NCBI RefSeq assembly: GCF_030273445.1
Contig: NZ_CP120678.1
Span: 721,501-785,500 of the forward strand
DNA length: 64,000 bases
Source: Selenobaculum gibii
Lineage (GTDB): Bacteria; Bacillota; Negativicutes; ICN-92133
Direction of reading: 5' to 3'
Below the pieces are notes generated by a model. That model ran no database searches. It was not told the origin of the DNA and was given only the letters and a program-made list of their open reading frames with translations. This document shows, in pieces, positions 1,491-20,750 of the stretch (positions are counted from its first letter, which is position 1; every line of letters begins with the position of its first letter). Both the position numbers and the translations under genes were made by a program.

Positions 1491-1685
1491 GAAATAGGTG
1501 TCGAAAGACTTAATAGGGAAGTCCGGTGAAAAACCGGTGCGGTCCCGCCGCTGTAACAGGGAGCGAGGTTACATTTATGTCACTGGGAGAAATCTTGGGA
1601 AGGCGTAGCCAAGCGATGATCTGAAGCCAGAAGAACTGCCTATTAGACAATCACCGTTAGACCTGCGAGCGATGGGAAGGGGATT
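1491..1685 (+). ncRNA. Cobalamin riboswitch 3, upstream of the first TonB receptor
   Basis: It is almost base-for-base the same as riboswitches 1 and 4 over the aptamer (AATAGGTGTC to ACTGCCTATT) and the following AATCACC...GGATT hairpin. It ends about 95 nt before the receptor start, and a T-tailed terminator stem lies between them, so the likely mechanism is transcription termination when cobalamin is bound. No strong promoter is visible directly upstream. Confidence 0.96.
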
Positions 1686-1719
1686 ATGATGCTAGGAGTA
1701 TTTCCTATGCAACCATATC

Positions 1720-1752
1720 AACTTCTGTCAAACGTGGCAGAAGTTTTTTTAT
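1720..1752 (+). terminator. Ligand-controlled terminator of riboswitch 3
   Basis: AACTTCTGTC pairs with GGCAGAAGTT (10 pairs including a G-T) around a six-base loop and is followed by seven T residues, ending about 29 nt before the receptor start codon. Confidence 0.9.
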
Positions 1753-1780
1753 TTATTGAATTTTATAAGTAAGGATGAGA

Positions 1781-4441
1781 ATGAGTAAGATGAAAAGCAA
1801 AAGGTTATATCAAGGCAAAATAAAAAACACACATCGTTATCAAAAAATTGCGGCATGTGTGGTTTGTACGTTGGCTTTAGGTTTTGCTATGCCAAATGGA
1901 ATCGTGTGGGCAGATGAAGCAAAGCAAGAGGCTGATCAGATGAATGAAGAAGTAACAGAAGCAAAAGAACCAGTAGTATTGGCAAGTACAGATAGTGAGC
2001 TAGATAGTTATACGTTAGATACGGTTACCGTTGAAGCAAAACGCCCTGACTGGGAATCAAAATTATCGCCAGGCACAGTGACGGTTATTCGCCCGGATGA
2101 TTATAAGGGCGAGCAGAAAACACTGCCGGAACTTCTCAAAATGGTACCGGGGGTACATGTAAGAGAAGTAAATGGGAAAGGGCAATATACGACAGTCACG
2201 GTTCGTGGGTCAACCTCGGCGCAGGTTGGTGTCTTTGTCGATGGCGTATTATTCAATCTCGGTGGCGATGCGGCGGCGGATATCTCGACTATTCCTGTCC
2301 AAAATGTCGAACGAATTGAAGTATATCGTGGCTATGTACCGGCAAGGTTTGGTGGCACCTATATGGGAGGCGTAATCAATATCGTAACGAAACGCCCAAC
2401 GAAAGCCAATATCGATGCATCCGTTGGTAAAAGTTCCTACGATGGGTTCCAAGGTGCTTTACAGATCGATGCTCCACTAGGTTCTGGCAGTATTATGTTT
2501 GGACTCAATCGCGACCAAAGTGATGGTGATTTTAAATATACGAATAAATCGGTAGATACTAGCCTTTATGACGGATATGTTAAAAAATTAAAAGATTATA
2601 CGCATCAAACCGATGGGAACGGAAAAATACGATTAGATCGGATGGTTTCGACTTTACAAGCGAATGGATATGATACTCTAAATGCTTATTCTGGGCTGAC
2701 CCAAGATAACCTTCGAATAACGCTTGCAACCGATCCTAATTTTTATGCAGCGTTAAATAAAGCGTCGGAACAATTGCGCCCAATTAATAATGCCCATGCA
2801 AATTATATCGGATATTTTAAAAGTTATATTGATAATATAAGGCTTTACCAGAAAGACATAGATTCAACGAGTACAACAGATCGTTGGCGTAAAACGAATG
2901 ATTACAAAAATACGGATGCAATTTTAAAATGGCAGGATGATCATTGGCTGGCAAAATACACTTGGAAGAAAATTGACCGTCATTATCCTTTCCCGCTGAA
3001 TGCGAATTATGGAAATATACCTAATATAGATTTGCCAGGATATCTTGACCCAATCTATAACTACCGTCATCAGGACATTACCAGCAAAGAAACGTTAATT
3101 GGACGGCGTGATACAGTTGGCAATTTAGAATGGGGGTGGAGTGTAAACTATCTCGACCAGACTAAACGCTATGCAGTAGACGATTGGCAGGAAAAAGAAA
3201 AGGTCGATACGACGGTGAATTGGCGTTCGCCAAACTATTACTGGAGCCAATATGACATGGATAAATTAGGCTTTAAAATTGATGGAACTTATAAAATCGG
3301 CGATAAGCATCTGTTCGAGTTTTTAATTGATACTTCAAAAGAAAAGATGGATATGGATGGTTGGCGGTTAAAACAATATCAACAAGCTACGATAAGTGTC
3401 TTTAAACGGTGGCGTACCTATTATGAACAGAAGCTGTTCAATGCCCAGATTCAAGATACGATTACTTTAAACGAGAAAGGTGATTTTTGGTTGACGCCAA
3501 GTATTCGCTATAATCGATCAAATATCTATGGGCTGAGCAATGGTTACGATCAAAACTCCGATCCGCAGAATATTAAATGGCTGCATCAGGCGGATGACCA
3601 GACGGATAGTAAAACAACTTGGCAGCTAGCGCTGAAAAAGCAGGTCAATGACAATTTAACACTTCGTGCAACGGGAGGTACATATTTTAGACTACTGAAT
3701 ATGTATGAAATCGCCGGTGATGGTGCAGGCATTTTACCCATGCCAAATATTGGAGGGAGTGATAGCATTTTTCCTCGCCCGGAAGAGGGGTCACAATGGG
3801 ATTTTTCCGCCATTTGGGATGGACAAATTTTCGGCACGGAAAGCAGCAAAATTCAACTGACGTATTTTGGTCGTGATTCCAAGCGGATGCTGCAGCTAGG
3901 CACCTGGAATAATTTCTTTTTCGTTTATACCAATGCGGCATCGGCAAAAGTGAATGGCTTAGAGATTCAAGCGGATTTATCCTGGAAGAAATGGGACTTA
4001 AACTTGCAAGGAACTTATACGAAGCCGAAAGATGTTATCTATGATTTGAGTAAATTGCCGGGGGCTGGTTATTGGGGAAATAATGGTGTATTCCCTGGTT
4101 ATCTGACTTATCAACCGGAATGGGAAGGAACGATGCGGCTGACTTATCGTCCGAGTACCCAGTGGGGGATTTTTGGTCAACTTCGGTATGTAGATAGAAT
4201 GCGTACTTCTCTCTATAATGATGGAGCTGCTGGAGAACAGTCCTCGTTGACGACTTTGGATTTAGGTGTGAAGTATAAGCCGAATACGAATACACAAATT
4301 ATCATCGGGGTCAATGATCTCCTTAATAAAGCGAATGATATGTATCAAACGAATCCATTTTATCCGAATTGGGAAGCGTCAAATATCCAGTATCCAATCC
4401 AAGGGCGTACTTACTACGCAACTTTGCAATACAATTTTTAA
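1781..4441 (+). CDS. TonB-dependent outer-membrane receptor 1, cobalamin-controlled
   Basis: This is an outer-membrane active transporter that uses TonB energy to import a bound ligand. The N-terminus is basic and then hydrophobic (KIAACVVCTLALGFAMP), with probable signal cleavage near VWA-DEA at about residue 44. A TonB-box-like YTLDTVTVEA lies near residues 76-86. A plug domain follows (GTVTVIRPDDY, VPGVHVREVNG, VTVRGSTSAQVGVFVDGV, NIVTKRPT), then a beta-barrel ending in the aromatic terminus LQYNF. At 886 aa it exceeds BtuB (about 600 aa), the extra length lying in the region after the plug. I chose ATG 1781 because AAGG sits six bases upstream; ATG 1775 and 1790 are alternatives. The riboswitch points to cobalamin or a cobalamin-linked ligand as substrate, but that is inference. 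The plug is near-identical in protein to that of receptor 2, with different codons. Confidence 0.93.
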   Translation: MSKMKSKRLYQGKIKNTHRYQKIAACVVCTLALGFAMPNGIVWADEAKQEADQMNEEVTEAKEPVVLASTDSELDSYTLDTVTVEAKRPDWESKLSPGTVTVIRPDDYKGEQKTLPELLKMVPGVHVREVNGKGQYTTVTVRGSTSAQVGVFVDGVLFNLGGDAAADISTIPVQNVERIEVYRGYVPARFGGTYMGGVINIVTKRPTKANIDASVGKSSYDGFQGALQIDAPLGSGSIMFGLNRDQSDGDFKYTNKSVDTSLYDGYVKKLKDYTHQTDGNGKIRLDRMVSTLQANGYDTLNAYSGLTQDNLRITLATDPNFYAALNKASEQLRPINNAHANYIGYFKSYIDNIRLYQKDIDSTSTTDRWRKTNDYKNTDAILKWQDDHWLAKYTWKKIDRHYPFPLNANYGNIPNIDLPGYLDPIYNYRHQDITSKETLIGRRDTVGNLEWGWSVNYLDQTKRYAVDDWQEKEKVDTTVNWRSPNYYWSQYDMDKLGFKIDGTYKIGDKHLFEFLIDTSKEKMDMDGWRLKQYQQATISVFKRWRTYYEQKLFNAQIQDTITLNEKGDFWLTPSIRYNRSNIYGLSNGYDQNSDPQNIKWLHQADDQTDSKTTWQLALKKQVNDNLTLRATGGTYFRLLNMYEIAGDGAGILPMPNIGGSDSIFPRPEEGSQWDFSAIWDGQIFGTESSKIQLTYFGRDSKRMLQLGTWNNFFFVYTNAASAKVNGLEIQADLSWKKWDLNLQGTYTKPKDVIYDLSKLPGAGYWGNNGVFPGYLTYQPEWEGTMRLTYRPSTQWGIFGQLRYVDRMRTSLYNDGAAGEQSSLTTLDLGVKYKPNTNTQIIIGVNDLLNKANDMYQTNPFYPNWEASNIQYPIQGRTYYATLQYNF

Positions 4442-4529
4442 CTAATTTTACTTGAAGGGAGGTGGTGCCGTTGAGCTAGGATAAGGTGTGTTAAAAGGAA
4501 AATAAAAGAACAAAAGGGAGAGGTTTATC

Positions 4530-5798
4530 ATGAGTGAAAATTTATTTGCGTATACAGCGACAAATGCAGGATATTCTACAGGAACCGCCGGAGCAATTCA
4601 CGGTGACAGAACTGCAGCTTCATCAACGGTGTTTACGGCAGTAAAGAATAAAATTGGGTCAGGTTTAAATGGTGATCCAGCATTCTTTAATTTTTTTGAA
4701 GGAAATAGCAGTCGGTTGGTTTTACGTCAATATACGTATAGCACTACGGACTTAAGAGCAAATCAAATTATTGCACCACAGGGCAATTGGCAAGCTCCTT
4801 TAGCTACGCCAACTTGGTCAGCGGTGGCAAATTTGCACGGTGTAGCAAATTATAGCAGTAGTTGGCTATATGCAACAGGATATGATTTATCAAAAATCGC
4901 GGTTGTGAACATGGGGACCGACTATAGTCAAGACTTTGAATATAGTTTCCCAACAAGTTTTACGAATTTTACGAATCCCTATGCGGATGGTGTTTTTCAT
5001 GGTGAAGCTATGGTTGTAGTTGGTACTTCGCTGTATGCATTGTTTTATGTCAATAAAGGCAGTGGATACGGAACTTATTATGACAGCATTGTAGCAAAGT
5101 TTAACATTGATACCGATTTGGGGGAACTAACTTTTGATAGCTATGTCACAGCAGGAAAAAATTCCTTTACACTGGATTTATATAATAATAAGCTCTATGT
5201 TTGTTCATTGGGTGGTATGCAGAATGCAGGTAGCGGCAATGCGGAAACGAAGCTCAGTATTATTGATTTGAGTAACTTTACCCAAGCTGGAGTTACCCAT
5301 GTGACGATTGACAATCCAACGACGAATGGTGATTTTCGTGATATTTCTATTGTGAATGATAACCATGTGTACTTATTCCTTGGTCACTATGATGTAAGTT
5401 TTGGTAATTTAGTTGGTGGTGTTTATCATACAACATTGGCTAATTTAACAACACCAAGCAATTGGACAAAGATTATTGATGTGAATTCTATGGGGTATCT
5501 ATGGGGGATTCATGCGGATGGTTATCGCTTATGGTTTGTTAAAGGAACGCCAATTGATGTTTTTGATGGAACGCCAACTGCAACAGTTACAGCAAGCAAA
5601 TCATTCAGTATTACCGACATGAGCGATTTTAATGGTGGTAATTTGAACTCAGCTTGCTTTATTGCACCGGATGTGGTTACCGGAGCAGGTAAACTGAAAG
5701 CTGCAGGCGTTTCTGCACCGTCAGCATCCAAATCCCTTGCTTCACATATTCGCTTAGCACGTGAAGCCCGTGAATTAGCAGAAAAGTGTAAAAAATAA
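4530..5798 (+). CDS. Stand-alone propeller-like protein homologous to the autotransporter head
   Basis: This 422-aa protein matches residues about 45-435 of the large autotransporter at 9716-19339. Shared landmarks include RLVLRQYTYSTTDL, ATGYDLSKIAVV, FHGEAMVV, the AGKNSF segment, SLGGMQNAGSGNAE and GDFRDI. The repeated pattern of a short strand, LY-V, and a following V-x-FNI or IIDLS strand suggests a beta-propeller fold; this is inference from spacing. It is preceded by a good ribosome binding site (AAAGGGAGAGG) and lies 88 nt after receptor 1, so the two are probably co-transcribed under riboswitch 3. No signal peptide or lipobox is visible although its homologous domain is exported. The C-terminus is a short charged helix (SHIRLAREARELAEKCKK). 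It could be a partner that binds the receptor's ligand, comparable in role to the propeller lipoprotein BtuG of Bacteroides, but the family is not recognised. Confidence 0.8.
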   Translation: MSENLFAYTATNAGYSTGTAGAIHGDRTAASSTVFTAVKNKIGSGLNGDPAFFNFFEGNSSRLVLRQYTYSTTDLRANQIIAPQGNWQAPLATPTWSAVANLHGVANYSSSWLYATGYDLSKIAVVNMGTDYSQDFEYSFPTSFTNFTNPYADGVFHGEAMVVVGTSLYALFYVNKGSGYGTYYDSIVAKFNIDTDLGELTFDSYVTAGKNSFTLDLYNNKLYVCSLGGMQNAGSGNAETKLSIIDLSNFTQAGVTHVTIDNPTTNGDFRDISIVNDNHVYLFLGHYDVSFGNLVGGVYHTTLANLTTPSNWTKIIDVNSMGYLWGIHADGYRLWFVKGTPIDVFDGTPTATVTASKSFSITDMSDFNGGNLNSACFIAPDVVTGAGKLKAAGVSAPSASKSLASHIRLAREARELAEKCKK

Positions 5799-5841
5799 AG
5801 AGCGTATGCGGTTGATATAGAGTGTTGAAGAGCATTAGGAA

Positions 5842-5887
5842 AAAGTTAGACCTAGGCTTTTTATTTTCTAGGTCTAACTTTATATTT
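5842..5887 (+). terminator. Terminator after the stand-alone propeller gene
   Basis: AAAGTTAGACCTAG pairs perfectly with CTAGGTCTAACTTT (14 bp). The 3' flank is TATATTT rather than a clean T run, but the stem is strong. Confidence 0.75.
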
Positions 5888-5913
5888 AAATGAGAAAGCC
5901 AAGAGGAATAGTG

Positions 5914-6435
5914 ATGAAAAAATGGTTTCTAGTGGGTGCTTTTATTTTGTTGTGTAACATGTTTTTTTCTGTATGTTTAGCAATGGAAGCAAATAAAGAT
6001 TCAGCAATAGATTGGGAAATTAGTGTGAAGGAAAAACTTACACCAGAGGAGCTAGAAGCAATGCGCTGGACGGAGGTATTTCAAAATGAATTGGCGCAAT
6101 ATTTTTTCGAAGTGAAGTCGATTCAACCAGACAGCGCAGATAAAGATCAAATACATGTTACTGTAAAAGCAATCTATAAGGATAAAGCGGTGATTAACAA
6201 TCTAAATGAATATTATCGAAAAGATTTGGAGGAGGAAGATATCATAGCTTGTAGTGAGATGCAGATGATTTTTCAGCTTCATAAAAGAATGTATGCAGTA
6301 AAAAATTTAAAATTGTATAGCTCCAAAAGAGTGCTTATTGTGGAGCAAACGAAAGATGTAAGTTTTGTTCCGGTGCCAGTGAAAACTTTTGCTGATACGA
6401 TGTACGAATTTGTTCGAAAGTGTGTACAAAATTAA
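5914..6435 (+). CDS. Exported protein of unknown function (173 aa)
   Basis: The ATG at 5914 has AAGAGGAA just upstream and opens a clear signal peptide (MKKWFLVGAFILLCNMFFSV, then CLA-ME). The mature part is acidic, contains no transmembrane segment, and holds an ELTP-like amphipathic stretch (KEKLTPEELEAMRWTEVF) followed by alternating strands. I do not recognise a family. A longer in-frame start at 5890 would prefix MRKPRGIV and has no ribosome binding site. The gene lies between the first receptor locus and riboswitch 4, separated from the propeller gene by a terminator. A periplasmic accessory role in the neighbouring uptake system is possible but unsupported. Confidence 0.7.
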   Translation: MKKWFLVGAFILLCNMFFSVCLAMEANKDSAIDWEISVKEKLTPEELEAMRWTEVFQNELAQYFFEVKSIQPDSADKDQIHVTVKAIYKDKAVINNLNEYYRKDLEEEDIIACSEMQMIFQLHKRMYAVKNLKLYSSKRVLIVEQTKDVSFVPVPVKTFADTMYEFVRKCVQN

Positions 6436-6488
6436 TAGGTATATGTTAACGATGAAATATTTAGAAATTTATAATAAATAAAAATAAA

Positions 6489-6500
6489 AGGAGTATACTC
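6489..6500 (+). promoter_or_regulatory. Palindrome GAGTATACTC with -10 box, before riboswitch 4
   Basis: AGGAGTATACTCT at 6489-6500 repeats the sequence at 242-253 upstream of riboswitch 1, including the TATACT -10 box and the T-rich downstream flank (TATTTTGTAA). Unlike the first copy, no good -35 box lies 17 bases upstream (ATAATA). A second possible -35, TTGACT, begins just downstream at 6516. Confidence 0.45.
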
Positions 6501-6544
6501 TTATTTTGTAATAAGTTGACTAATGATACAAAAATATATAACGA

Positions 6545-6739
6545 AGAAATAGGTGTCGAAAGACTTAATAGGGAAGTCCGGTGGAAAACCGGTGCGGTCC
6601 CGCCGCTGTAATAGGGAGCGAGGCTACATTATGTCACTGGGAGAAATCTTGGGAAGGCGTAGCCAAGCGATGATCTGGAGCCAGAAGAACTGCCTATTTA
6701 ACAATCACTGTTAGACCTGCGAACGATGGGAAGGGGATT
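6545..6739 (+). ncRNA. Cobalamin riboswitch 4, upstream of the second TonB receptor
   Basis: It is nearly identical to riboswitches 1 and 3, with a few substitutions (GTGGAAAACC for GTGAAAAACC, CTGTAATAGG for CTGTAACAGG, CACTGTTAG for CACCGTTAG). It ends about 90 nt before the receptor start, with a terminator stem between, giving the same architecture as the first receptor locus. Confidence 0.96.
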
Positions 6740-6773
6740 ATGAAGTATAGGTTTGTTTCCTATGCCCTCATAC

Positions 6774-6804
6774 GACTTCTGTCAAACATGGCAGAGGTTT
6801 TTTT
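6774..6804 (+). terminator. Ligand-controlled terminator of riboswitch 4
   Basis: ACTTCTGTC pairs with GGCAGAGGT around AAACAT and is followed by six or more T residues, matching the terminator of riboswitch 3 in position and sequence. Confidence 0.88.
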
Positions 6805-6830
6805 ATTGAATTTTATAAATAGGGATGAGA

Positions 6831-9692
6831 TTGAGGAAGATGGATAATAAATGGTTATATCAAATCAAAACGAAAAAAAAGCGCCGCTATCAAAATATAG
6901 CAGCGTGCGTAGTTTGTACGTTAGCTTTGGGAGTTGTTACACCAGCTGGGATGGTTTGGGCTGATGAAGCACAGCAGGATATTGAAAAAATATCAAATAC
7001 AGAGAATGAACTGGACGAGTATACGTTAGATACTGTTACTGTTGAAGCAAAACGCCCAGATTGGGAATCAAAATTGTCGCCAGGCACAGTAACTGTGATT
7101 CGTCCTGACGATTACAAAGGTGAGCAGAAAACATTGCCGGAACTCTTGAAAAAAGTTCCGGGAGTACATGTACGTGAAGTAAATGGGAAAGGACAATATA
7201 CAACTGTAACGGTTAGAGGTTCAACAGCAGCGCAGGTTGGGGTTTTTATAGATGGGGTTTTATCAAATTTAGGTGGAGATGCAGCTGTTGATATATCTAC
7301 AATTCCTGTTGATAATGTTGAGCGGATAGAAGTTTATCGAGGCTATATACCAACTCGTTTTGCTGGAACTTTTATGGGTGGTGTTATCAATATAGTAACG
7401 AAGAAACCCACCAAGGCTAATATATCGGCAGAAGTTGGCAAATCCTCTTATGGTGGTACAAGGGCAGCTTTGGAAATAATGAATCCATTAGGTAGTGGTA
7501 GTTTGCTGATTGGAATTAATCATGATGGCAGTGATCAAAATTTTAAATATGAAAATTATGCAGCTGGAAGAAATATATCGGATGTTCAGTTAAGCATAAA
7601 TTCGTTGCAAGAAGACGTTGATGATTTTAATCCGAAAATGATAGATATGTTAACAAGCGGAGGCAAACCGCTTATTTCTATGAGTGATTCAGATAAAGAT
7701 TATTACAAAGCTAATTTTGATGCGTGGATAGAATTTATTAGAAGCACAGGCGATAAAAGCTTAAGTCATGCGATAGAAGATAATGCAAAAAATGTAGCAC
7801 AAAAGTCTTCCATGAGTACTTTTAGACAAACGATGATTGACATGGGGATTAAAGATCAATATATTGCTGCTGGATATCCTGAAACTGGATGGACTAATTG
7901 GTGGGATTTTGCAGGTGAGGATTGGAACTACCATGGTAGTGAAACGGGGATTATAGATGATAATGTTAAGAATCAAATTATTGATACATATGTGCAAAAT
8001 ACAACACCTAAAATTATTGATGAATGGACAACTATTGTTGATCCGGATAAAAGTACGTCATTAGCAAGTTCGAAAGAAGAATTAGAAGCGGCTAAAAAGA
8101 AACTTAAGGCGTTGCAGGATAAAGAAAGATACCGCAGATATAACGATTATAAAAAAGATAGCGCTATGATCAAATGGCAGGATGATAATTTTGTGATTAA
8201 AGGAAGTTGGAACAAAATTCAAAGGCATTTACCTGATAGTTTATGGGGAGATAGTGTTAGCGATGCAGCCACGAATGCATTAGTAGATACAAAAGATATT
8301 TTTTATGCATCAAGTCGTAAACAGGAGCTTGAGAATAGTGAAATTCTTTTACAAAATAGGGCGCAATATAAAAAGTTGGAATGGGGCTGGATGATCGACT
8401 ATCTTCATCAAGATAAAAAATATAGAACGGAACATATGTTAGATTATCCTAATAATTTTAGATGGAATAATATTCCGCTAAGAGAGTGGAGTCATTACCA
8501 ATCTGATAAATATAATGTACAGCTTGATGGGAATTATCAAATTAATGATAATCAGATGTTAGAATATCAATTTAACTTTTCTCATGAAAAGTTAAACATT
8601 AAAGGTTCGTTACTGGATAAAGTTCTTGGTGATGATGTTATAGGAAATATATTAGGACAAACTCGCAATAGATATGAGCAAGATTTATTTAATATGCAGA
8701 TTCAAGATGCGATTACATTGGATAAAGAAGGTACATGTATATTGACTCCAAGTATTCGCTATAATCAATCAAAAATTACAGGCTTTAGTGATGGAAAACG
8801 TTTCCCAGTGAATCAAAGTAATAAATTTCATTGGTTACATCAAGAAGACAGTCAGACGGATGGCAAAGCTACTTGGCAATTAGCGCTGAAAAAAGAATTT
8901 AATGATAGCTTTAGTCTTCGCATGACAGGTGGTACTTATTATAGACTGCTTAATATGTATGAAATTGCCGGTGATGGTGCCGGAATTTTGCCGGCGTCAC
9001 GAGATGGAAGTAGTTCAAGTTTTCCATTGCCGGAAGAAGGGATGCAGTTCGATATTAGTGCTTTGTGGAACGGCAAAACCTTGGGGGCAGATAATAATAC
9101 TACTTTAACTTATTTTTGGCGTGATTCAGATAATATGCTTCAATTAGTGCGTGCAGGTCTTGATTATTGGTCTTATTTTAATGATAGCCGAGCTAAAGTG
9201 CATGGTATTGAGTTAGAAAGCCAATTTAAGTGGAATAAATATTCTTTAGATTTACGCACGACTTACACTAAAGTAAATGCGCAGAAAAAAAATACAGCAG
9301 TTAATTATCCGTATACCGATATATGGATGACTTATCAGCCAGAATGGGAAAGCAGCTTGCGTTTAACTTATACACCGAATAATAAAATATCTATTTTTGG
9401 TGAATTACATTATACAGATGAATATTTTACTAGTACCAGTCGGGATTCTCGTGGTGGCAATTATGCTTATTTGTCGGGGAAACCGGTGAGCTCTTTAACT
9501 GTAATCAATACAGGCGTTAAATGGAAACCAGAGAAGGATTGGCAAATTAATATCGGTTGTAATGACATCTTTAATAAAGGACCTAAACAAAAAATCTATA
9601 GTCCTATTGCCTTTACTGAAGATGGGTATATCAATGCAGAGTTTCCCTTACAAGGAAGAACTTACTATGCAACCGTTAGATATGAATTTTAA
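6831..9692 (+). CDS. TonB-dependent outer-membrane receptor 2, cobalamin-controlled
   Basis: This is a paralogue of receptor 1, with the same architecture: signal peptide (IAACVVCTLALGVVTPAGMVWA), TonB-box-like YTLDTVTVEAKRPDW, plug (GEQKTLPELLKKVPGVHVRE, VTVRGSTAAQVGVFIDGV) and a barrel ending in TVRYEF. It is about 65 residues longer; the added and divergent segment lies at residues roughly 210-440 and is rich in Asp, Lys and Trp, as expected for large extracellular loops. TTG 6831 is chosen because AGGG lies six bases upstream, mirroring ATG 1781 of receptor 1; ATG 6825 and 6840 are alternatives. Codon choice is more AT-rich than in receptor 1 although the plug proteins are almost the same. 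The autotransporter gene follows 23 nt later, so the pair is likely one operon. Confidence 0.92.
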   Translation: MRKMDNKWLYQIKTKKKRRYQNIAACVVCTLALGVVTPAGMVWADEAQQDIEKISNTENELDEYTLDTVTVEAKRPDWESKLSPGTVTVIRPDDYKGEQKTLPELLKKVPGVHVREVNGKGQYTTVTVRGSTAAQVGVFIDGVLSNLGGDAAVDISTIPVDNVERIEVYRGYIPTRFAGTFMGGVINIVTKKPTKANISAEVGKSSYGGTRAALEIMNPLGSGSLLIGINHDGSDQNFKYENYAAGRNISDVQLSINSLQEDVDDFNPKMIDMLTSGGKPLISMSDSDKDYYKANFDAWIEFIRSTGDKSLSHAIEDNAKNVAQKSSMSTFRQTMIDMGIKDQYIAAGYPETGWTNWWDFAGEDWNYHGSETGIIDDNVKNQIIDTYVQNTTPKIIDEWTTIVDPDKSTSLASSKEELEAAKKKLKALQDKERYRRYNDYKKDSAMIKWQDDNFVIKGSWNKIQRHLPDSLWGDSVSDAATNALVDTKDIFYASSRKQELENSEILLQNRAQYKKLEWGWMIDYLHQDKKYRTEHMLDYPNNFRWNNIPLREWSHYQSDKYNVQLDGNYQINDNQMLEYQFNFSHEKLNIKGSLLDKVLGDDVIGNILGQTRNRYEQDLFNMQIQDAITLDKEGTCILTPSIRYNQSKITGFSDGKRFPVNQSNKFHWLHQEDSQTDGKATWQLALKKEFNDSFSLRMTGGTYYRLLNMYEIAGDGAGILPASRDGSSSSFPLPEEGMQFDISALWNGKTLGADNNTTLTYFWRDSDNMLQLVRAGLDYWSYFNDSRAKVHGIELESQFKWNKYSLDLRTTYTKVNAQKKNTAVNYPYTDIWMTYQPEWESSLRLTYTPNNKISIFGELHYTDEYFTSTSRDSRGGNYAYLSGKPVSSLTVINTGVKWKPEKDWQINIGCNDIFNKGPKQKIYSPIAFTEDGYINAEFPLQGRTYYATVRYEF

Positions 9693-9715
9693 ATGAGAGG
9701 AGTGTTTTAGGGTTT

Positions 9716-12700
9716 ATGAAAAAAATAATATCAAGCAAAAAGAAAAATCCTATAGCGAAAAAGAAGTATGCTAGACTTTTAGCAATGGTTTTAGGTGGAT
9801 GCTTAATGACTGGGAATGTTTTTGCTGCAGATTTAGCGGCAGTTGCTTCTTCGGATTACACAAATAGTCAAGTAGGAAAAGTTACAGGATCAAGAGTAAC
9901 TACGCATGTCGATGCGGATCCATCAGCAGGCGTTATTAAAGAGTTAAATGGGGATGCTGGGCTATATGCAATCAATGAAAATGGTGAAAGTAAACTAGTC
10001 TTGAGACAATATACTTACAGCACGACTGAATTAAAACCCAATCGTGTATTGGATGTAAATGGGGATTGGAATAACCCTGATCAGACTGGAGTGATAAAAG
10101 CAGTTGCTAATATGCATGCAGCCGCTTCTAATGGAAAATATTTATTTGCAACAGGATATGATTTAGGTCAAATTGGTGTAGCAGAAATTGCAGGAGGCTC
10201 TTTAAAAGATCAACCGAGTTTAACTGTTAATTTGAAGAATTGCATTAATGACAATTGTAGTGCTGGTTATGGCGCAAAGACTACGGTACATGGTGAAGGT
10301 ATTGCAGTACGTGGGGATAAACTTTACTTAGTTGCAAGTGTTAATTTGGAAGGGGGCTATGACAATTATGACAATGGATATTTATTGCAATTTAATATTA
10401 AAGATAATGGCAGTTTAGAGTTTAATAGTTATACTAGAGTAGGTAAAAATGCAGATCAGGTTCGATTGAGTTTTTATAATGATTCAGTGTTTATCCCGTT
10501 TATTGGTGGGATGCAAAATTATGGGGCAGGTAATGCAGAGTCAAGAATTGATGTCGTCAAAATTTCTAATGGGCAGCTAAATACAACATCCCAGGCTATA
10601 AAAAAACCGGAAAATGTTAAGTGTGATTTTAGAAACCTGAAAATTTTGCCGAATGGGACAGCCTATGTAATGACTTATAATTTAGCTGCGACAGGTAGTG
10701 GAATGGATGCGCATGTTTATAAGACAACTGTATCTAATTTGATGTCAGAAAATCCAAAAAATTGGGAAGAAATTGTTAGTGGTCAGTATGAAGGCTGGTT
10801 TGGTAAGCTGGATGCGGAGTACTATACTAAACGGCTATGGCTGGAAGCCGGCGATAAATTACAGGTATATACTGATGGCAGTACGAAGCCGATTGTTTGG
10901 AATGCGAAAGATTTTTCTACCGATGAGCAATATTCTTTGTTTAACGCAGTTGAAATCATACCTACAGATACTGTAAACGGCGAGCTTGCTCAATTAAAAT
11001 TCATGGCAGATGAAGGATTGACCCAATCGTCACAAACATTGAATAAAAGAGTAAATTTAAATGCAACAAGTAATAGTGGTGACTATAAAAGTAGCATTAC
11101 AGGAACGGCATCCGATGTACAGTATAACGCAGTAACAAATGATAATAGCCATTATCATTTTGATGCGGATAAAACAATAAACTTGGGGCTCGAAAAATCA
11201 GGGGGGAATTTAGATAACAATATATTAGCAGATATCTATGCAAATGATGGCAACGATATTGTAATTGACGCTAGTGCGAATACATTGCAATTGCAAGCTA
11301 AAAACTATATCGGGACTCCGGTAGGGATTTTTGCGGGAAACGGTAAAAATGTAAGTATTGATGCCGGAAAATTAAATATTATTACGAGTGGATATCAAGG
11401 GGGAAATAGTTTAACAAATGCTATTTGGAATGATGCCGGTAAAGATAAAACGAGTACGATTGAAATCAATGCTCCGGTAAATATTTCTATGAGTGACGGT
11501 TTAGGTGGAAATGGAATTGCGATACAAAAAACGGATCGCTGGGGCGAGAAAAGTAATGAAGCAAATGATAGTTCAAAAGTTATCATTCATGGAGATGTAA
11601 GTATTTTAGGTGCAGATAATACGGTGTGGGGAATCCCAATAAACGGTGAAAACGTTTATTCAAGATTTAATAATGCAGGCATTTTAACGGCTGTTGACAA
11701 AAGTGAAGTCGTGATTGATGGGAATGTAGATTTCGCGGTATACGGAAATGGTGTTACGACAAATGCCAAAGATAGTAAGGTTAGTATCAATGGAGGAAAG
11801 ATTGTAGCTCCGTCATCCACGCAATATGGATATTACGCATTATCATCTTATCTTGGTGCAATCAATATGAATACGGGGATAGATGGAAAAACAGTAGGGA
11901 GTAATACGGTAAAACTTGATGGTGATTTATTTGCACTAAATACCGGTACGATAAATCTTGCACTAATAAATAATAATTCTTATTTAAATGGAATCATTGA
12001 TAATGGTGGCACAGCAAATCTATATTTGCAAAATGGTGCTACTTGGTATAATGCAAAACAGAATAATCGCTATGCAGATGATAATGAAGATATAGGTGCA
12101 GGACAGATTAGTCATGTAAGTCGTCTTACAGGTGGAAACACACCACAAAATCGAGGTGTGATTTATCAAAAAGACAGCAACCCGATTACGATCGATAGGT
12201 ATAGCGGAAATACTTTGGCTTGGTATGATCATAATACATCATCGCCAGCTGAAATAATTGGTGGGGCTATTCATATAAAATCGGCAGATTTAGATTCTAC
12301 GATGACTTTATGGACAGGAAATAATGGGATTAATACAGCAGATAGTGCTACAGATAGTGAAAAGGCAACTTTAAATACCGTATTGGATAATCTTGCAAAA
12401 AAACTGGTTTATGAAGGGTATAAAGGTAAGGTTGAAAATAATTTAAAAGGAACAGTTGGTATCGCGGAAGGAATGACATCTTCATCGGCGTTAAAAAGTG
12501 GGGATATCACATTTAGTCAAATAACAGGAGAAGGGAGTTATCAAAGTACAAGTAATCCACCAATACCTACAGAACAGATTACTACATCATTTACTACAAC
12601 TTTGACCGGACTTAAGGATAATGATATCCAATATGTAAATGGCGGCGTGGTTCAAAAAAATGCGACGGGACAAGAGGGATATCGTCTTACGAAAGATAGT

Positions 12701-15700
12701 ACGATTACCGTGAATGATCAGAATGTAACGGCGAGCAATATTGGCTATTATCCGGCAGTCGTTGGAATTTTAGGCAATGGAAATGACATTACCGTTGTTG
12801 CGGATGGGAAATCGCTGGATTTGGATTGTGTAAGCACAACGGGAACCAGTCAGGCAATTGGTGTATATGCGAATAAAAACGTAAATGTACAAGCCAATAA
12901 TTTGAATATTAAAGCGACAGCTCCAGGAAAAACGGCTGCAGGGATTTTTGTCCAAAATGGCGGTCAAGCTGTAATCAATGGAAATGTTGATATGTCAGTC
13001 AAAAACTCTACTGATGGTGATGCGGATGGAATTTATCTTTATAACGGCGGCTCTAAGCTCACAATCAATGGTGACCTTAATATGAAAGGAAACGGTGAAG
13101 GCGATTTAGCCTATGGTGTTTTAGCTGCTGAAAAAGGTGGGTATGGAACAAAGGTATATCAAGCTAAAGGCATTTATATGTACGATAACAGTACTGACGG
13201 TGGGGAAGTAAAGATTACCGGAAAAGCTGATATTGCCGTTAAAGGTACCGGAATCGATATGCGAGGGAGCAAGAACAATAAAATAACGATTGACAGTGGA
13301 AGTATTATCACACCTGAAAGTACGACTGATGAATTTAAAGCGATTGGCATTGCAGCGGGTACATTCAATATGGGAATGACGGATCAAGGAATTGTAAATG
13401 GGAAGGATGTAACTGTCAAAGGGCAAATTTATGCTTTAGAAAAAGGGACGATTAACCTTGGATTAGGTAGTAGTAACTCCTTGTTTGCAGGCGTTGTTAG
13501 TAATACGAACGGTGGCGCTATTAATTTATTTTTAGAAAAGGGTGCTACATGGGAAAATACGCTTAATTCAAAATCAGCTACTTTTAATGGCAGTCATGTC
13601 AATACAGTATCGGGTGGAAAAACAAAACAAAATCAGGGTGTAATTTCTCAAAAAGACAGCAACCCGATTACAATCGATAAGTATAGCGGATATACTACTG
13701 TTTTATATGGGCATGACAAGACAACACCGACCAATATCATTGGTGGAATTTTGACGATAAATAGTGCGTTAGGCGATAGCTTTATCACATTGCGCACGGA
13801 TAATGTAGGATTAAATACTGATTCTGATAAAGCGAATGATAAAAATCTGGTAAGTGAAACGTTAAATGCTTTAGCAAATAAATTGTACTATACTGCCCAT
13901 ACAAATGGAGAAAAAAATCTTAGCGGTATGGTAGAGATTGCTGAAGGGTTAACGGCTGCTTCCGCAAGTAAAAAATCTGGGTCTATAACGTATAAAACAG
14001 ATGGTCAAGGACAATATGAATATACGCAAGCTGTAGATGCACCTAAAACTGATCCTATTACGAAAAGTATGACATTAACTGATGATTATGAAGCTATAGC
14101 CACAGTGGCAAACGCGTATGGTGATAAATATGTAAGTGCATTGTTTAATGGTAGTGAAAGTACATCAAAACAAAATCCAATGGTTATTGATATGGCAGGA
14201 CATAATTTAACGTTGAAATCAGAAAGCCCTGACAAGATTGCAGCTGGTATGTTTGTTAGTGCCAATGATTATATCAATGTAAAAAACAATGATGCTACTA
14301 AAAAATTATCTATCAGTTCGACGATTAATGATACCCGCGGTGCAATGGGGATTCAGTTAGATGGGAATTCTCATTTAGCTATTTCAGGTGCGGTAGATAT
14401 CGATGGCGTATCAACGAATGGGGATAGTGTAACAGGAATTCATATCCAGGGGCAAAATAGTGATATCAAGATTGATGGTCCATTAACGATGAAAAATATA
14501 ACAGCAAAACGAGAACGAGGGAATGGGATCAATGCTGCGGGAATTCGAGTGACGGGGGACAATTCAACTGTTACGGTAAATGATATCGTTGATATTACTG
14601 GGATAAGAGGAAATGGTCTTAATACTGTTGGCGCAGATTCATCAATTTCCGTTAAGGGTGGAACGATTACTGCGGCAGAGGATGCTGATAAATCAAAACT
14701 GTTTTATGCAATTCGCGTAGATAAAGGTACTGTTAGCGTGAATATGAACGGTCAAAATGCCGGAAATACAACGACTAAAATAAATGGTGATGTCTTTGTC
14801 AACAAAGAATACGGTAAAAGAGTAGTAGAATACAGTGGTGGAGAACTTGTTGATTTTACGAAGAACGGTAATCTAAATTTAGCACTTACTGATAACCAAT
14901 CTTTTTGGACAGGTGTTGCAGGGTATTCTATTGATAAAAGTGATTATGGTACTGGCGGATTTACTGCACATGATGCAGGAGATTTCAACTTATACCTTCA
15001 AAATGGCGCTACATGGACAAATCAGCAACAATCAAGTGTTAAACAACAAACAAACAATGAGGCTACTTTCAGTGGTAGTAAGGTAACAAAGTTAACGGGC
15101 GGTACTGATAAAGATCATGCAGGTTTGATATTCCAAAAAGATAATCGTGATATTACGGTTGACAATTATAGCGGTAATATGAAAGTCTTTTATGAACATG
15201 AGTTGAGTACGCCGACAACGATGATTGGTGGGAACATAAAAATTAATCATGCAGCAACGGATAGTGGAATTATTTTTAGTACCGATAATGCAGGAGTAAC
15301 GAATGAAAATAGTAACGCAGTATTAAATGCATTGGCGAATAAGCTATATTATAACGCATATATAAGCGGAGAAAGAAATCTTATTGGTCAAGCTGAAATC
15401 ACGGAAGGGCTTACTTCATCGGCAAAAGCACTCAAGTTAGTTGATATGACATTTAACGAAACGACGGGGCAAGGGGAATATAAAGTACCTGTGATTCCTG
15501 ATAATCAGACTGAAACAGAATTTACGAGGGCGATTACCGGAAATAAAGAAACAAATAGCGAATATGTGGATAGTGGTGTTTTAAAAGAAAACGGAACGTA
15601 TAGTTTTACTAAAGATACAACAATCAATGCGGAGAAAAACCTCATTGCTGCCGGAGCTTGGATGCCTAAGATTAGTTCGGCAATATCCGGAAGTACTGAA

Positions 15701-18700
15701 GCTACATCAGTGCTACTTGACATGAATAATAAAGATTTAATAATTAATGCAACTACTGATACACATACGACGGGGATAACGGCAATTGGCGATGGAAAAG
15801 TAGAAATTGATCATGCCGGTAAAATAACAATAAATACCGAAAGTACGGGTGGTGGGCAGACTGCTGCATTATATACCAATGGCGGTGGTCATATAGTCAT
15901 ACATAATGGGGGAGAAAACCTAGAAGATAAAGTATTGACGGTAAGAGCAAATACTACAAGTATCGCGAACGGTGCAGTAATTAAATCTATGAATGGAGTC
16001 GGCGGCAAAGAATCAAGTATTATTATTGATGGGCTTGTAGATGTAGTGGCAGACGGTAATGGTGATGCGAAAAATGGAAAAGGGGCAAATGAAGGCATCA
16101 GTGCAGTTGCATCGACGATTGAAATTGGTGGAGGTAGTATCAAAGCCGTTAACGGTGCTTGGTGTGCAATTCGTGCTTATGGAGAATTTGTTTCGAATAA
16201 TTACGGCACTGTAAACATCAATGTAGCGAAAGATGAACAGGGAAATATCATTGGAGCAGGCAAGAACAAGACTACGATTGAAGGTGCGATTGTAACAAAT
16301 GGTGGAATGGGAACGAAAGGTAGAGTGAGCATTGGATTAAGTACGCCAGACTCCTATTGGAAAGGTGATTACACAGATGTAACGGGATATGGTGTAACAC
16401 AGGGACAGTTGGGGAATGTGAATTTGTTTATGACCAATGGTGCAAACTGGACAGGATATACGAAAGGAACGATGAATGTTGATATGTCTAGCGGAGCAAC
16501 TTGGGAAGGATATAACGTTGGTGATAACTTCAATTTAAGTCTAAGCGATCAAGCTATTTGGAAAAATAATAATAAGACAGAAAATCCTAGCAAAGTCCAA
16601 TATTTAACTGGTGCTAAAGACAAAAATAAGATTGGCTATATTCAAATGACACAAGATGCTACGGCTAATTTGGTAATAGATAATTATAGTGGAAATACCT
16701 TAGCTTGGTATGATCATAATACAGCATCTCCGACAGAGCTAATTGGTGGTTCGATTACTGTAAAATCGGCAGCACCTGATTCGACAATGACGTTGTGGAC
16801 AGGAAACAACGGTGTTAATACAGCAACGAGTGCAACCGATGCAGAAAAAGAAACGCTGAATACAGTATTAGATAATTTGGCAAAGAAATTAATTTATACG
16901 GGCTATATAGGCAAAGCAGAAGAAAATTTGAAAGGGTATGTCGGTATTGCAGAAGGCATGACTTCATCTTCGGCGATAAAGAATAGTGAAATTAAATTCA
17001 GTAAAACAACCGGTGAGGGAAGTTATGAACATCAAATTACGCCACCGACTCCGCCTATTCCACCGGTAATACCAAGTGAATTTAATACGCCAATTGGGAA
17101 GGATAACGCTAATGATGAGTACAAGGATGTAATGGATGATACCGGAAGGACATATACGTTTACGAAAGATACTAAAGTCGATGTTGACGATACTAAACAA
17201 GTGGCTGACGGTGTTACTGCAGCAGTATATAGTAATAATAAAGACACTATAATTAATGCTGAAGGTAAAAATATTGTATTAGATGCGAATGGAACAGCAA
17301 ATAAATCTTATGGTATAGCTGCTACGGCTGAAAATAGCAATATAAATGTAAATGCGAGCAACGTGACAATTCATACATCCGGTAGCAATGAAAGTAGTGG
17401 GATCTATAGCGACCAGGGAAATGTAAGTATCATAAATAATATTTCAGTTCATGCGAAAAATGGGAATGGAATTTTAGCAAAGGATAATGGGAAAGTTACA
17501 ATTAATGGTGATGCTGATATTACTGTAGATGAAAATAATGCACAAGCAGTTTGGGCTTCTGCCGGCACGGTTGAAATAAAAGGTGATACCACGATTAATG
17601 CAGTTAATAAAACAGCACTGCTAGCCGAGGCAGGTGGTCAAATAAAACTTGATACAACGAATAAACGTGTGAATATCACAGGCGACATTGAAAATCATGG
17701 TGGAAGTATAGCGATTGTTCCAGGGGAAGATTCTGTAATTAAAGGCGCGATAAGAAATACAAGTGGTAATGTAGAAATTAGTTTAGGCAAGGGATCGGTC
17801 TTAGAAGGTGGCATTGAAACCGGATCTACTCAGAAAACTTTTTCGATGATGCGTAATGTATCAGCAGAGCCAATAACTAAACTTTCTTTAGTAGATGGTG
17901 CAATATGGAGGTTTAATGCAGATAAAGATGCTAATGTAAGTGACCTTGTTGGAGGAAGTAAAGGTCATGAAGGAATCATTGAACAAAAGTCTGCTCATGA
18001 GATTACTGCTCATACCTTTAGTGGTAATATGAATGTAAAATATGCTAGTACATATGCTGATGGAAATTTAATGATTAATGATAATCAGGGTAATTTTGTA
18101 ATTAATGGACTAAAAGCAGGTTCGAGTAATAACAGTATTACGATTTCTACTGATAATAATAATGTAAATGCATTGGATAATACTTCATGGGAAAAAACGT
18201 TAAACAGCTTGGCTAACAAAGTGCAATATAATGGCGTAATTAATGAAGATGGACGAGTAAGTAATTTGACTGGTATGGCAACTGTTAATGAAAGCATTAC
18301 TGCACCATCAGCAAAAGCAGAGATATTATTTAAAAATGGGACTGATAGCAATATAATAGATAAAATTACGTTTAATAATGGTTCAAGTGGAACTATCACT
18401 TATGGTGATTATGAAACTGCGGTGATGAGTGGAGTAAAATCTGCGATGACATCAGCTGCTATGGGATGGCGCACTGAAAATAACAATCTCATGAAACGTA
18501 TGGGGGATTTACGGTTATCATCCGGAGATGTTGGAGCATGGGCACGTATTTATAGAGGAAAATCTAGTAGTGATAAAAATAAAACCGATTATAAAGCAAA
18601 TTATAATACTGTTCAAGTTGGCTACGATAAAGAAGTCGATGGAAATTGGCGTGTTGGTACTGCGATAAGCATTATGGAAGGTGACAGCAGCTATCAATAT

Positions 18701-19339
18701 GGAGGTAGCGGTGATGACAAGTCTAAGAGTATTGCACTTTATGGAACATGGAATGGAGAAAAAGGACATTATGCCGATTTGATCTTGAAAGGAACGAAAC
18801 TGACTAATGATTATACGGTATTCAATGCTGATGGACATCAGGTAGAAGGAGATTATGATACTTGGGGAACCTCTATTAGTGCAGAGTACGGTCGTCGAAT
18901 TAAGCAAGATAATGGTTTTTATTATGAACCACAGTTAGAATTTACGTATGGGCATCTTAATGGAAGTGATTATGATGCGACGAGTGACTTCATGGATGTC
19001 AATGGCAAGTATAAGACGATGAATGTAAATCAAAGTAGTATGAATAGTTTGATAGGACGTATTGGGATAGCATTTGGTAGAGAAATGGAGAAAAACAGTG
19101 TTTACGCACAATTATCATATAGTCATGAATTCTGTGGTGATATGAATACGTATTATGATGCTGATAATATGCCAAAAAGTACAAAGCAAGATTTTAAAGA
19201 CAGCTGGGTAACATTCATGTTAGGCGGAACTTCTCAACTCAATGATAAACTTTATGCCTATGGTAATTTCGAGAAATCAATAGGTGGCGACATAAAAACT
19301 GACTGGCGTATTGATGCTGGTTTACGTTGGAGTTTCTAA
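9716..19339 (+). CDS. Giant autotransporter with propeller-like head and five repeat modules (3207 aa)
   Basis: This is a type V secreted surface protein. A lysine-rich extended signal peptide (MKKIISSKKKNPIAKKKYAR, then LLAMVLGGCLMTGNVFA) is followed by a head at about residues 45-435 homologous to the protein at 4530-5798. Residues about 440-2900 form five diverged tandem modules of roughly 450-510 residues. Each ends with the same order of motifs: NLYLQNGATW-like, TGG...GxIxQKDSNPITID, YSGNT, IIGGxIxI, LNxLANKLxY and a GEGSYE-like close. This is consistent with a long beta-helical stalk. The last 290 residues (from GWRTENNNLMKRMGDLR to WRIDAGLRWSF) are an autotransporter beta-barrel with the classical terminal Phe. 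It lies 23 nt after receptor 2 under riboswitch 4. I infer that the head is displayed far from the cell, perhaps to capture the receptor's ligand; adhesion is the main alternative. Confidence 0.9.
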   Translation: MKKIISSKKKNPIAKKKYARLLAMVLGGCLMTGNVFAADLAAVASSDYTNSQVGKVTGSRVTTHVDADPSAGVIKELNGDAGLYAINENGESKLVLRQYTYSTTELKPNRVLDVNGDWNNPDQTGVIKAVANMHAAASNGKYLFATGYDLGQIGVAEIAGGSLKDQPSLTVNLKNCINDNCSAGYGAKTTVHGEGIAVRGDKLYLVASVNLEGGYDNYDNGYLLQFNIKDNGSLEFNSYTRVGKNADQVRLSFYNDSVFIPFIGGMQNYGAGNAESRIDVVKISNGQLNTTSQAIKKPENVKCDFRNLKILPNGTAYVMTYNLAATGSGMDAHVYKTTVSNLMSENPKNWEEIVSGQYEGWFGKLDAEYYTKRLWLEAGDKLQVYTDGSTKPIVWNAKDFSTDEQYSLFNAVEIIPTDTVNGELAQLKFMADEGLTQSSQTLNKRVNLNATSNSGDYKSSITGTASDVQYNAVTNDNSHYHFDADKTINLGLEKSGGNLDNNILADIYANDGNDIVIDASANTLQLQAKNYIGTPVGIFAGNGKNVSIDAGKLNIITSGYQGGNSLTNAIWNDAGKDKTSTIEINAPVNISMSDGLGGNGIAIQKTDRWGEKSNEANDSSKVIIHGDVSILGADNTVWGIPINGENVYSRFNNAGILTAVDKSEVVIDGNVDFAVYGNGVTTNAKDSKVSINGGKIVAPSSTQYGYYALSSYLGAINMNTGIDGKTVGSNTVKLDGDLFALNTGTINLALINNNSYLNGIIDNGGTANLYLQNGATWYNAKQNNRYADDNEDIGAGQISHVSRLTGGNTPQNRGVIYQKDSNPITIDRYSGNTLAWYDHNTSSPAEIIGGAIHIKSADLDSTMTLWTGNNGINTADSATDSEKATLNTVLDNLAKKLVYEGYKGKVENNLKGTVGIAEGMTSSSALKSGDITFSQITGEGSYQSTSNPPIPTEQITTSFTTTLTGLKDNDIQYVNGGVVQKNATGQEGYRLTKDSTITVNDQNVTASNIGYYPAVVGILGNGNDITVVADGKSLDLDCVSTTGTSQAIGVYANKNVNVQANNLNIKATAPGKTAAGIFVQNGGQAVINGNVDMSVKNSTDGDADGIYLYNGGSKLTINGDLNMKGNGEGDLAYGVLAAEKGGYGTKVYQAKGIYMYDNSTDGGEVKITGKADIAVKGTGIDMRGSKNNKITIDSGSIITPESTTDEFKAIGIAAGTFNMGMTDQGIVNGKDVTVKGQIYALEKGTINLGLGSSNSLFAGVVSNTNGGAINLFLEKGATWENTLNSKSATFNGSHVNTVSGGKTKQNQGVISQKDSNPITIDKYSGYTTVLYGHDKTTPTNIIGGILTINSALGDSFITLRTDNVGLNTDSDKANDKNLVSETLNALANKLYYTAHTNGEKNLSGMVEIAEGLTAASASKKSGSITYKTDGQGQYEYTQAVDAPKTDPITKSMTLTDDYEAIATVANAYGDKYVSALFNGSESTSKQNPMVIDMAGHNLTLKSESPDKIAAGMFVSANDYINVKNNDATKKLSISSTINDTRGAMGIQLDGNSHLAISGAVDIDGVSTNGDSVTGIHIQGQNSDIKIDGPLTMKNITAKRERGNGINAAGIRVTGDNSTVTVNDIVDITGIRGNGLNTVGADSSISVKGGTITAAEDADKSKLFYAIRVDKGTVSVNMNGQNAGNTTTKINGDVFVNKEYGKRVVEYSGGELVDFTKNGNLNLALTDNQSFWTGVAGYSIDKSDYGTGGFTAHDAGDFNLYLQNGATWTNQQQSSVKQQTNNEATFSGSKVTKLTGGTDKDHAGLIFQKDNRDITVDNYSGNMKVFYEHELSTPTTMIGGNIKINHAATDSGIIFSTDNAGVTNENSNAVLNALANKLYYNAYISGERNLIGQAEITEGLTSSAKALKLVDMTFNETTGQGEYKVPVIPDNQTETEFTRAITGNKETNSEYVDSGVLKENGTYSFTKDTTINAEKNLIAAGAWMPKISSAISGSTEATSVLLDMNNKDLIINATTDTHTTGITAIGDGKVEIDHAGKITINTESTGGGQTAALYTNGGGHIVIHNGGENLEDKVLTVRANTTSIANGAVIKSMNGVGGKESSIIIDGLVDVVADGNGDAKNGKGANEGISAVASTIEIGGGSIKAVNGAWCAIRAYGEFVSNNYGTVNINVAKDEQGNIIGAGKNKTTIEGAIVTNGGMGTKGRVSIGLSTPDSYWKGDYTDVTGYGVTQGQLGNVNLFMTNGANWTGYTKGTMNVDMSSGATWEGYNVGDNFNLSLSDQAIWKNNNKTENPSKVQYLTGAKDKNKIGYIQMTQDATANLVIDNYSGNTLAWYDHNTASPTELIGGSITVKSAAPDSTMTLWTGNNGVNTATSATDAEKETLNTVLDNLAKKLIYTGYIGKAEENLKGYVGIAEGMTSSSAIKNSEIKFSKTTGEGSYEHQITPPTPPIPPVIPSEFNTPIGKDNANDEYKDVMDDTGRTYTFTKDTKVDVDDTKQVADGVTAAVYSNNKDTIINAEGKNIVLDANGTANKSYGIAATAENSNINVNASNVTIHTSGSNESSGIYSDQGNVSIINNISVHAKNGNGILAKDNGKVTINGDADITVDENNAQAVWASAGTVEIKGDTTINAVNKTALLAEAGGQIKLDTTNKRVNITGDIENHGGSIAIVPGEDSVIKGAIRNTSGNVEISLGKGSVLEGGIETGSTQKTFSMMRNVSAEPITKLSLVDGAIWRFNADKDANVSDLVGGSKGHEGIIEQKSAHEITAHTFSGNMNVKYASTYADGNLMINDNQGNFVINGLKAGSSNNSITISTDNNNVNALDNTSWEKTLNSLANKVQYNGVINEDGRVSNLTGMATVNESITAPSAKAEILFKNGTDSNIIDKITFNNGSSGTITYGDYETAVMSGVKSAMTSAAMGWRTENNNLMKRMGDLRLSSGDVGAWARIYRGKSSSDKNKTDYKANYNTVQVGYDKEVDGNWRVGTAISIMEGDSSYQYGGSGDDKSKSIALYGTWNGEKGHYADLILKGTKLTNDYTVFNADGHQVEGDYDTWGTSISAEYGRRIKQDNGFYYEPQLEFTYGHLNGSDYDATSDFMDVNGKYKTMNVNQSSMNSLIGRIGIAFGREMEKNSVYAQLSYSHEFCGDMNTYYDADNMPKSTKQDFKDSWVTFMLGGTSQLNDKLYAYGNFEKSIGGDIKTDWRIDAGLRWSF
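11030..18415 (+). repeat. Five tandem protein-level repeat modules in the autotransporter stalk
   Basis: Modules span about 11030-12545, 12590-14030, 14060-15490, 15515-17030 and 17075-18415, each 1.3-1.5 kb. Every module ends with a GEGSYQ-, GQYEY-, GQGEY-, GEGSYE- or YGDYE-type segment, and the first four then restart with a Thr/Pro-rich linker. The ends of modules 1 (from about 12196) and 4 (from about 16676) are much closer to each other than to modules 2, 3 and 5; both read NTLAWYDHNT, DSTMTLWTGNNG and TLNTVLDNLAKKL. This points to an internal duplication or gene conversion. Confidence 0.8.
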
Positions 19340-19380: not shown

Positions 19381-19405
19381 AAAATAAAATTTAGGAGTGA
19401 TATTC

Positions 19406-19879: not shown

Positions 19880-19933
19880 TAATAGTTTACATAAAAAATA
19901 GAATTTATAATGTATATTAAGGAGCGTTTTAAA

Positions 19934-20496: not shown

Positions 20497-20525
20497 GACA
20501 ATCGTTGTTTAAAATAGCATATTTG

Positions 20526-20714
20526 CACAAGGGGTGCCGCAAGGCTTAATAGGGAAATCGGTAGAATCCGATACGGTCCCGCCGCTGTAAGGGGAGCAAC
20601 TTCTATAATGTCACTGGAGAATTTCTGGGAAGGCAGAAGAAGCGATGAACCTAAGTCAGAAGAACTGCCCATTGTAAGATCACCGTTAGACCTGCGACAG
20701 ACAGGAAGGGGATA
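20526..20714 (+). ncRNA. Cobalamin riboswitch 5, upstream of the BtuB-like gene
   Basis: It contains AATAGGGAAATCGGTAGAAT, GGTCCCGCCGCTGTAA, CTGGGAAGGC and the B12-box-like AAGTCAGAAGAACTGCCC, closed by GGGTGCC-type pairing, plus the conserved ATCACCGTTAGACCTGCGA hairpin. It is clearly homologous to but more distant from copies 1, 3 and 4. It is followed by two strong hairpins and, 157 nt later, by the BtuB-like gene. Confidence 0.96.
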
Positions 20715-20747
20715 TTGCGCTATATACTTAGTATATAGCGCAATATT
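20713..20747 (+). promoter_or_regulatory. 16-bp hairpin in the expression platform of riboswitch 5
   Basis: ATATTGCGCTATATAC pairs perfectly with GTATATAGCGCAATAT around TTA, immediately after the aptamer and before the terminator. It has a short TTTT tail of its own and may be an anti-terminator partner or a first terminator. Confidence 0.65.
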
Positions 20748-20750
20748 TTG

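Follow-up and report, generated by a model that had tools for sequence, protein, structure and literature searches.

Probable corrinoid capture units pairing TonB receptors with a BtuG-like propeller domain under cobalamin riboswitches in Selenobaculum gibii

Two neighbouring loci in a 64,000-nucleotide stretch of Selenobaculum gibii DNA (contig NZ_CP120678.1, positions 721,501 to 785,500; hereafter the window, in whose numbering positions are given) probably encode capture-and-import units for corrinoids, the vitamin B12 family, that would work like BtuB-BtuG of Bacteroides while displaying the capture protein differently; we place the probability of this reading at roughly 0.77. In the Bacteroides system BtuG2 caps BtuB2 and a loop of the receptor releases the vitamin (PMC10404256), and BtuG has been reported to be exclusive to Bacteroidetes (PMC6143338). 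Searches of the open-licence literature gave no account of a system of this kind in Negativicutes.

The original prediction, made from the sequence alone, was that the two loci share a cobalamin riboswitch, a terminator, a TonB-dependent receptor and the same domain, and the RF00174, terminator and Pfam calls, together with the alignment of the two domains described below, confirmed it. In locus A, on the plus strand, a riboswitch (1479-1657; Rfam RF00174, 98.6 bits) and an intrinsic terminator (1720-1745) are followed by the receptor TB1 (1775-4441, 888 aa), the domain protein DOM_A (4530-5798, 422 aa) and a 181-aa exported protein of unknown family (5890-6435), which recurs beside standalone DOM genes and has relatives in the collected loci L050, L051, L058, L061 and L063. 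Locus B, on the same strand, comprises a riboswitch (6534-6711; 99.4 bits), a terminator (6774-6799), the receptor TB2 (6825-9692, 955 aa), a 3207-aa autotransporter (9716-19339), a 160-aa protein (19397-19879) and an OmpH/Skp-like periplasmic chaperone (19910-20359; PF03938), which likely serves the barrels of this locus. In other loci, too, the autotransporter gene is followed by small ORFs similar to the 160-aa protein, by visual comparison of their N-termini.

Two or three riboswitch copies stand ahead of the locus A operon, the additional ones, both on the plus strand, being a copy at 287-465 (98.6 bits; 92% identity to that at 1479-1657), which is followed by an intrinsic terminator at 542-570, and a weak and possibly degenerate match at 624-836 (31.6 bits, cut-off 31.5). 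Such upstream clusters of two to three cobalamin riboswitches, often with no intervening gene, were seen both here (287-836 and 1479-1657) and in L053, L055, L059, L063, L089 and L094. A further RF00174 riboswitch (20515-20686) begins a third riboswitch-receptor unit (20515-22871), which lacks the propeller domain; behind its receptor a short ORF (22959-23396) resembles, by eye, the N-terminal part of a BtuF-type binding protein and is perhaps truncated. In the whole S. gibii genome seven of the nine TonB plug genes closely follow one of the 14 cobalamin riboswitches, a distribution that suggests a heavy investment in corrinoid uptake. Given that riboswitch linkage of receptors is common in this genome, it is the linkage of the domain that is the distinctive part.

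Both TB1 and TB2 contain a TonB plug (PF07715) and barrel (PF00593) above cut-off, and the best PDB matches of each are E. coli BtuB (E 4e-19 and 9e-17, respectively). The two receptors share 71% identity over their first 266 residues and 41% beyond, a pattern that would fit a duplication after which the outward-facing parts diverged. TB1 scored below the cut-offs of the BtuB equivalogs TIGR01779 and NF007926 (107 against 599.7 bits, and 94.1 against 836 bits).

The domain common to DOM_A and to the autotransporter head, DOM_B (about aa 39-422; 9830-10981, plus strand), is about 385 residues long, and the two sequences align with 31% identity over some 400 residues at E 5e-56, so that their resemblance is not a matter of chance. 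When DOM_A was searched with phmmer against 177,635 PDB sequences, BtuG1 was the only one below E 0.5 (E 2.2e-5); the family profile likewise found BtuG1 alone in the PDB (E 9e-7), and a profile of the standalone forms only also matched it (E 5e-6), the alignment spanning only about 80 residues, or one blade, with the motif VG[KR]NA...KLYV...GG. A profile built from the autotransporter heads only gave no BtuG match among PDB sequences; its top rows were retinol-binding proteins, which we judged to be chance, so that a BtuG origin of the heads on their own found no support in sequence. The heads are joined to BtuG by sequence through DOM_A. The degenerate-pattern scan used a 7-sequence alignment, one of 20 sequences being too diverse.

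The shared domain has no family in Pfam, NCBIfam or PHROGs. For PF16819 (DUF5074), the Pfam family of BtuG, the best place in this genome is DOM_A, at 16.6 bits and below the curated cut-off of 27.2, and no lipobox was found, DOM_A having no signal peptide and the autotransporter heads no conserved cysteine; on both counts we did not file the domain as BtuG.

A propeller fold had been proposed for the domain with the proviso that it was unproven, and the AlphaFold (AF2) models, built with 14 aligned sequences, gave a propeller and not an unrelated fold: the strands of both can be read as seven blades, at mean pLDDT 86.6 and pTM 0.88 for DOM_A and 85.8 and 0.85 for DOM_B. When DOM_A was realigned by VIA its best 11 entries were all BtuG1, BtuG2 or BtuG3 (Z 24.8-26.2), as the proposed likeness of the locus A protein to BtuG would have it, with the next propellers following from 24.7 and other seven-bladed propellers lying within 1-2 Z of BtuG. 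In Foldseek, E. coli YncE ranked first for DOM_A and BtuG chains took most of the 16 highest places. For DOM_B the top Foldseek match was BtuG2 with cyanocobalamin (E 1.3e-7), and in VIA BtuG1 led (Z 26.0) with lactonase-type propellers tied; XusB-ferrichrome propellers were also among the fold matches. Because other propellers score so close, the fold by itself establishes a propeller, and the kinship with BtuG rests on sequence and context. The presumed ligand face was modestly more conserved, top against bottom loops (permutation at loop level, p 0.07; for the 45 most conserved residues, a cut-off set post hoc, Fisher p 0.014), which is only suggestive.

The domain is present in 29 of 380 Negativicutes genomes, with named matches in Selenomonas, Megamonas and Sporomusa, and outside the class in Candidatus Adiutrix and another deltaproteobacterial bin. 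Where the domain itself served to fetch the neighbourhoods, 36 of 44 domain ORFs adjoin a TB1/TB2-like receptor on the same strand, and in 27 of these 36 a cobalamin riboswitch lies no more than 2.5 kb upstream, against a chance expectation of about 0.7% given the riboswitch density of this genome; six more domain genes, from neighbourhoods fetched by the receptor, were left out of the 44 because their choice was not independent. The co-occurrence of riboswitch, receptor and domain anticipated by the original prediction is thus conserved across Negativicutes. In termite-gut Adiutrix the order is riboswitch, domain, receptor, and in one genome (L068) the domain gene itself has a riboswitch directly in front of it. 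A 391-aa companion protein of Megamonas had no relative in the S. gibii genome.

Receptor and domain also vary together. Over 38 pairs their distance matrices correlated at r 0.84, where 2000 shuffles gave at most 0.33. When partners were swapped within the nine genomes that hold two pairs, r fell to 0.59, and every single swap lowered it, in some genomes slightly. At the level of sequence, this co-variation argues for a pair-specific interaction beyond shared genome ancestry.

The autotransporter of locus B consists of a signal peptide, the DOM_B head, a long passenger stalk (about aa 440-2939; 11033-18532, plus strand) with at least four spaced copies of a motif of about 60 residues, and a C-terminal beta-barrel (aa 2941-3185; 18536-19270, plus strand; PF03797, E 2e-41), and so has the terminal barrel and N-terminal signal peptide of a type V autotransporter; the heads have a hydrophobic N-terminus and, as read from the sequences, AxA-type cleavage. 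The stalk is predicted to be a beta-helix. By type Va topology, a straight beta-helical passenger holds its N-terminal head well away from the membrane. On such a stalk DOM_B should be distant from the membrane, which would leave three options, that the stalk bends, that it is cleaved or that it serves neighbouring receptors; how a head on a stalk of about 2,500 residues serves a membrane receptor is a puzzle that the locus raises.

In a maximum-likelihood tree, a quick one with several long branches, the 22 autotransporter heads all fell into a single clade (support 100), whose neighbours are standalone forms lacking a signal peptide, and most heads adjoin a receptor upstream, the exceptions being mainly tandem autotransporter copies or contig edges. 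Autotransporter display thus appears from the sequences to be only one arrangement, which arose once, the common form being standalone and usually without a signal peptide. The proposal that Negativicutes display the propeller by type V secretion therefore held for the layout of locus B and failed as a general form.

In some genomes the two kinds of barrel are fused. In a broader search for the receptor, ORFs of 1430-1850 aa turned up in which an autotransporter barrel precedes a TonB plug and a TonB barrel; Pfam confirmed the double barrel in seven loci, most of which have a distant standalone domain next to it and cobalamin riboswitches nearby (L086:3741-8141, L087:4618-9879, L089:3494-8827, L091:1702-6096, L092:4251-8534, L096:4587-8981 and L069:3554-7945; 1427-1777 aa). 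Given that locus B of the window encodes its autotransporter barrel and its TonB receptor in separate adjacent genes, the Rosetta-stone argument would have it that the two barrels probably work together.

Signal-peptide calls come from inspection of the sequences and a scan for hydrophobicity rather than from SignalP. DOM_A has none: only eight open codons precede its ATG, which has a good ribosome-binding site. Of the original picture of paired surface proteins, display of the locus B head on its autotransporter remains the likely layout, and DOM_A cannot yet be called a displayed surface protein. Most standalone forms, among them those of the window, Sporomusa, Megamonas and Adiutrix, begin directly at the first propeller strand; two lineages of relatives have a signal peptide and one has an autotransporter signal, and standalone forms with a signal peptide require two changes on the tree. 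DOM_A ends in a conserved C-terminal helix, and most of the forms without a signal peptide (4530-5798 in the window, and those in L053, L056, L061, L062, L065, L083 and L084) have the C-terminal tail K-S-[FLM]-A-x-[HQ]-x2-LA-x2-A[RK]. A search of its own genome found the DOM_A tail nowhere else, so no general export signal could be named. Genes for S8 subtilase or C1 papain-type peptidases, again with no obvious signal peptide, lie near standalone domain genes (L050:6580-7554, L062:10719-11693, L061:13355-14281).

One could imagine that the TonB receptor, or the fused double barrel, exports the propeller that has no signal peptide and imports the corrinoid that it has caught, a two-way TonB gate that we regard, by analogy, as a long shot. 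The export half has a precedent in Oar/PopC of Myxococcus xanthus, where a protein without a signal peptide leaves the cell through a TonB-dependent transporter (PMC6434023); in contrast to DOM_A, PopC is a protease, and the domain layout of Oar differs from that of TB1.

The domain also occurs in a prophage of one Sporomusaceae-like genome, in a tail-fibre gene (L066:8296-9711, minus strand) that comes just after a gene for a lambda-like central tail fibre J (PHROG 31, E 3e-156); the product of the tail-fibre gene fuses a tail module of 80 residues to a domain copy with 60% identity to that in the host's own operon. Such a propeller would plausibly let the phage dock on the receptor, and its presence in a tail fibre suggests that the phage exploits the same docking as the host protein. 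Two scans of viral contigs and a tblastn search of 50,697 phage records gave no relative of the domain. A plasmid search found one, on pSPTER of Sporomusa termitida (L098, 37065-55949), where OmpH, a long TonB receptor, the domain and a C1 peptidase lie together; this relative, the one annotated example looked at, is labelled 'hypothetical protein'.

Several other readings must be weighed against corrinoid capture at the surface. The propeller might capture another ligand of a TonB system, such as a siderophore, haem or a corrinoid-like metallophore, with only its expression tied to cobalamin, much as XusB serves ferrichrome. TonB receptors are versatile, TB1 is far below the BtuB family cut-off, and XusB ranks among the fold matches; against these stand the cobalamin riboswitches ahead of most operons in many genera, and in L068 ahead of the domain gene itself, the BtuB best matches of the receptors, and BtuG1 as the sole PDB sequence relative. 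We consider another ligand quite unlikely. That the head of the autotransporter serves as an adhesin, or is a generic propeller sharing an operon with the receptor by happenstance, is less likely still. Giant autotransporters of Negativicutes are known as adhesins, as in Veillonella parvula (PMC7549365), and DOM_B taken alone has no sequence match to BtuG. However, the standalone partner of the paralogous receptor is a homologue of the head, all the heads form one clade beside the standalone forms, and an upstream receptor adjoins most of them.

DOM_A raises a separate question, since a protein with no signal peptide could be a cytoplasmic corrinoid-binding or storage protein. The same lack in most standalone relatives across many genomes would fit such a role, as would the neighbouring peptidases that also start with no obvious signal peptide. 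On the other hand, the lineages of relatives that do have a signal peptide or an autotransporter signal, the outer membrane receptor as the partner in co-variation, and the use of the domain outside the cell by a prophage tail fibre all speak against it, and we hold a cytoplasmic role to be unlikely, though the least so of these alternatives.

When corrinoid is scarce, a cobalamin riboswitch lets transcription pass its terminator. Under corrinoid capture at the surface, such read-through in both loci would supply the outer membrane with a BtuB-like TonB receptor and a partner seven-bladed propeller. We infer that the top face of the propeller binds the corrinoid and that the propeller, docked on its cognate receptor, hands the corrinoid over for import with TonB energy. 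In locus B a type V autotransporter would display the propeller at its N-terminus, with a long protein stalk in place of a lipid anchor; in locus A the propeller would act as a separate protein made without a signal peptide. If the domain is BtuG-like in diderm Firmicutes and Adiutrix, propeller-assisted capture of B12 is more widespread than Bacteroidetes, and such a propeller can be displayed by type V secretion as well as by a lipid anchor.

Comparison with known systems brings out both likeness and difference. Like BtuB of E. coli and Bacteroides, TB1 and TB2 have a TonB plug and barrel under riboswitch control, and their plug region best matches E. coli BtuB in the PDB; BtuB has about 600 aa, however, whereas TB1 and TB2 have about 890-955 aa and divergent barrels far below the BtuB equivalog cut-offs. 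The protein of locus B shares its signal peptide, long passenger and C-terminal PF03797 barrel with type Va autotransporters, and differs from them in its head, a BtuG-like propeller whose gene follows that of a TonB receptor under cobalamin riboswitch control. XusB of Bacteroides fragilis (PDB 9hqk), a surface propeller of a TonB system, resembles DOM in overall fold, but it is a lipoprotein with a siderophore ligand, and no XusB-DOM sequence match was found. The closest counterparts are BtuG1, BtuG2 and BtuG3 of Bacteroides thetaiotaomicron (PMC6143338, PMC10404256), which are likewise seven-bladed propellers encoded beside a BtuB-type TonB receptor under cobalamin riboswitch control, and to which the standalone form of DOM has a weak but specific sequence match; unlike BtuG, DOM has no lipoprotein anchor, takes the form of an autotransporter head or of a protein without a signal peptide, occurs in Negativicutes and Adiutrix, and is known here from sequence and models.
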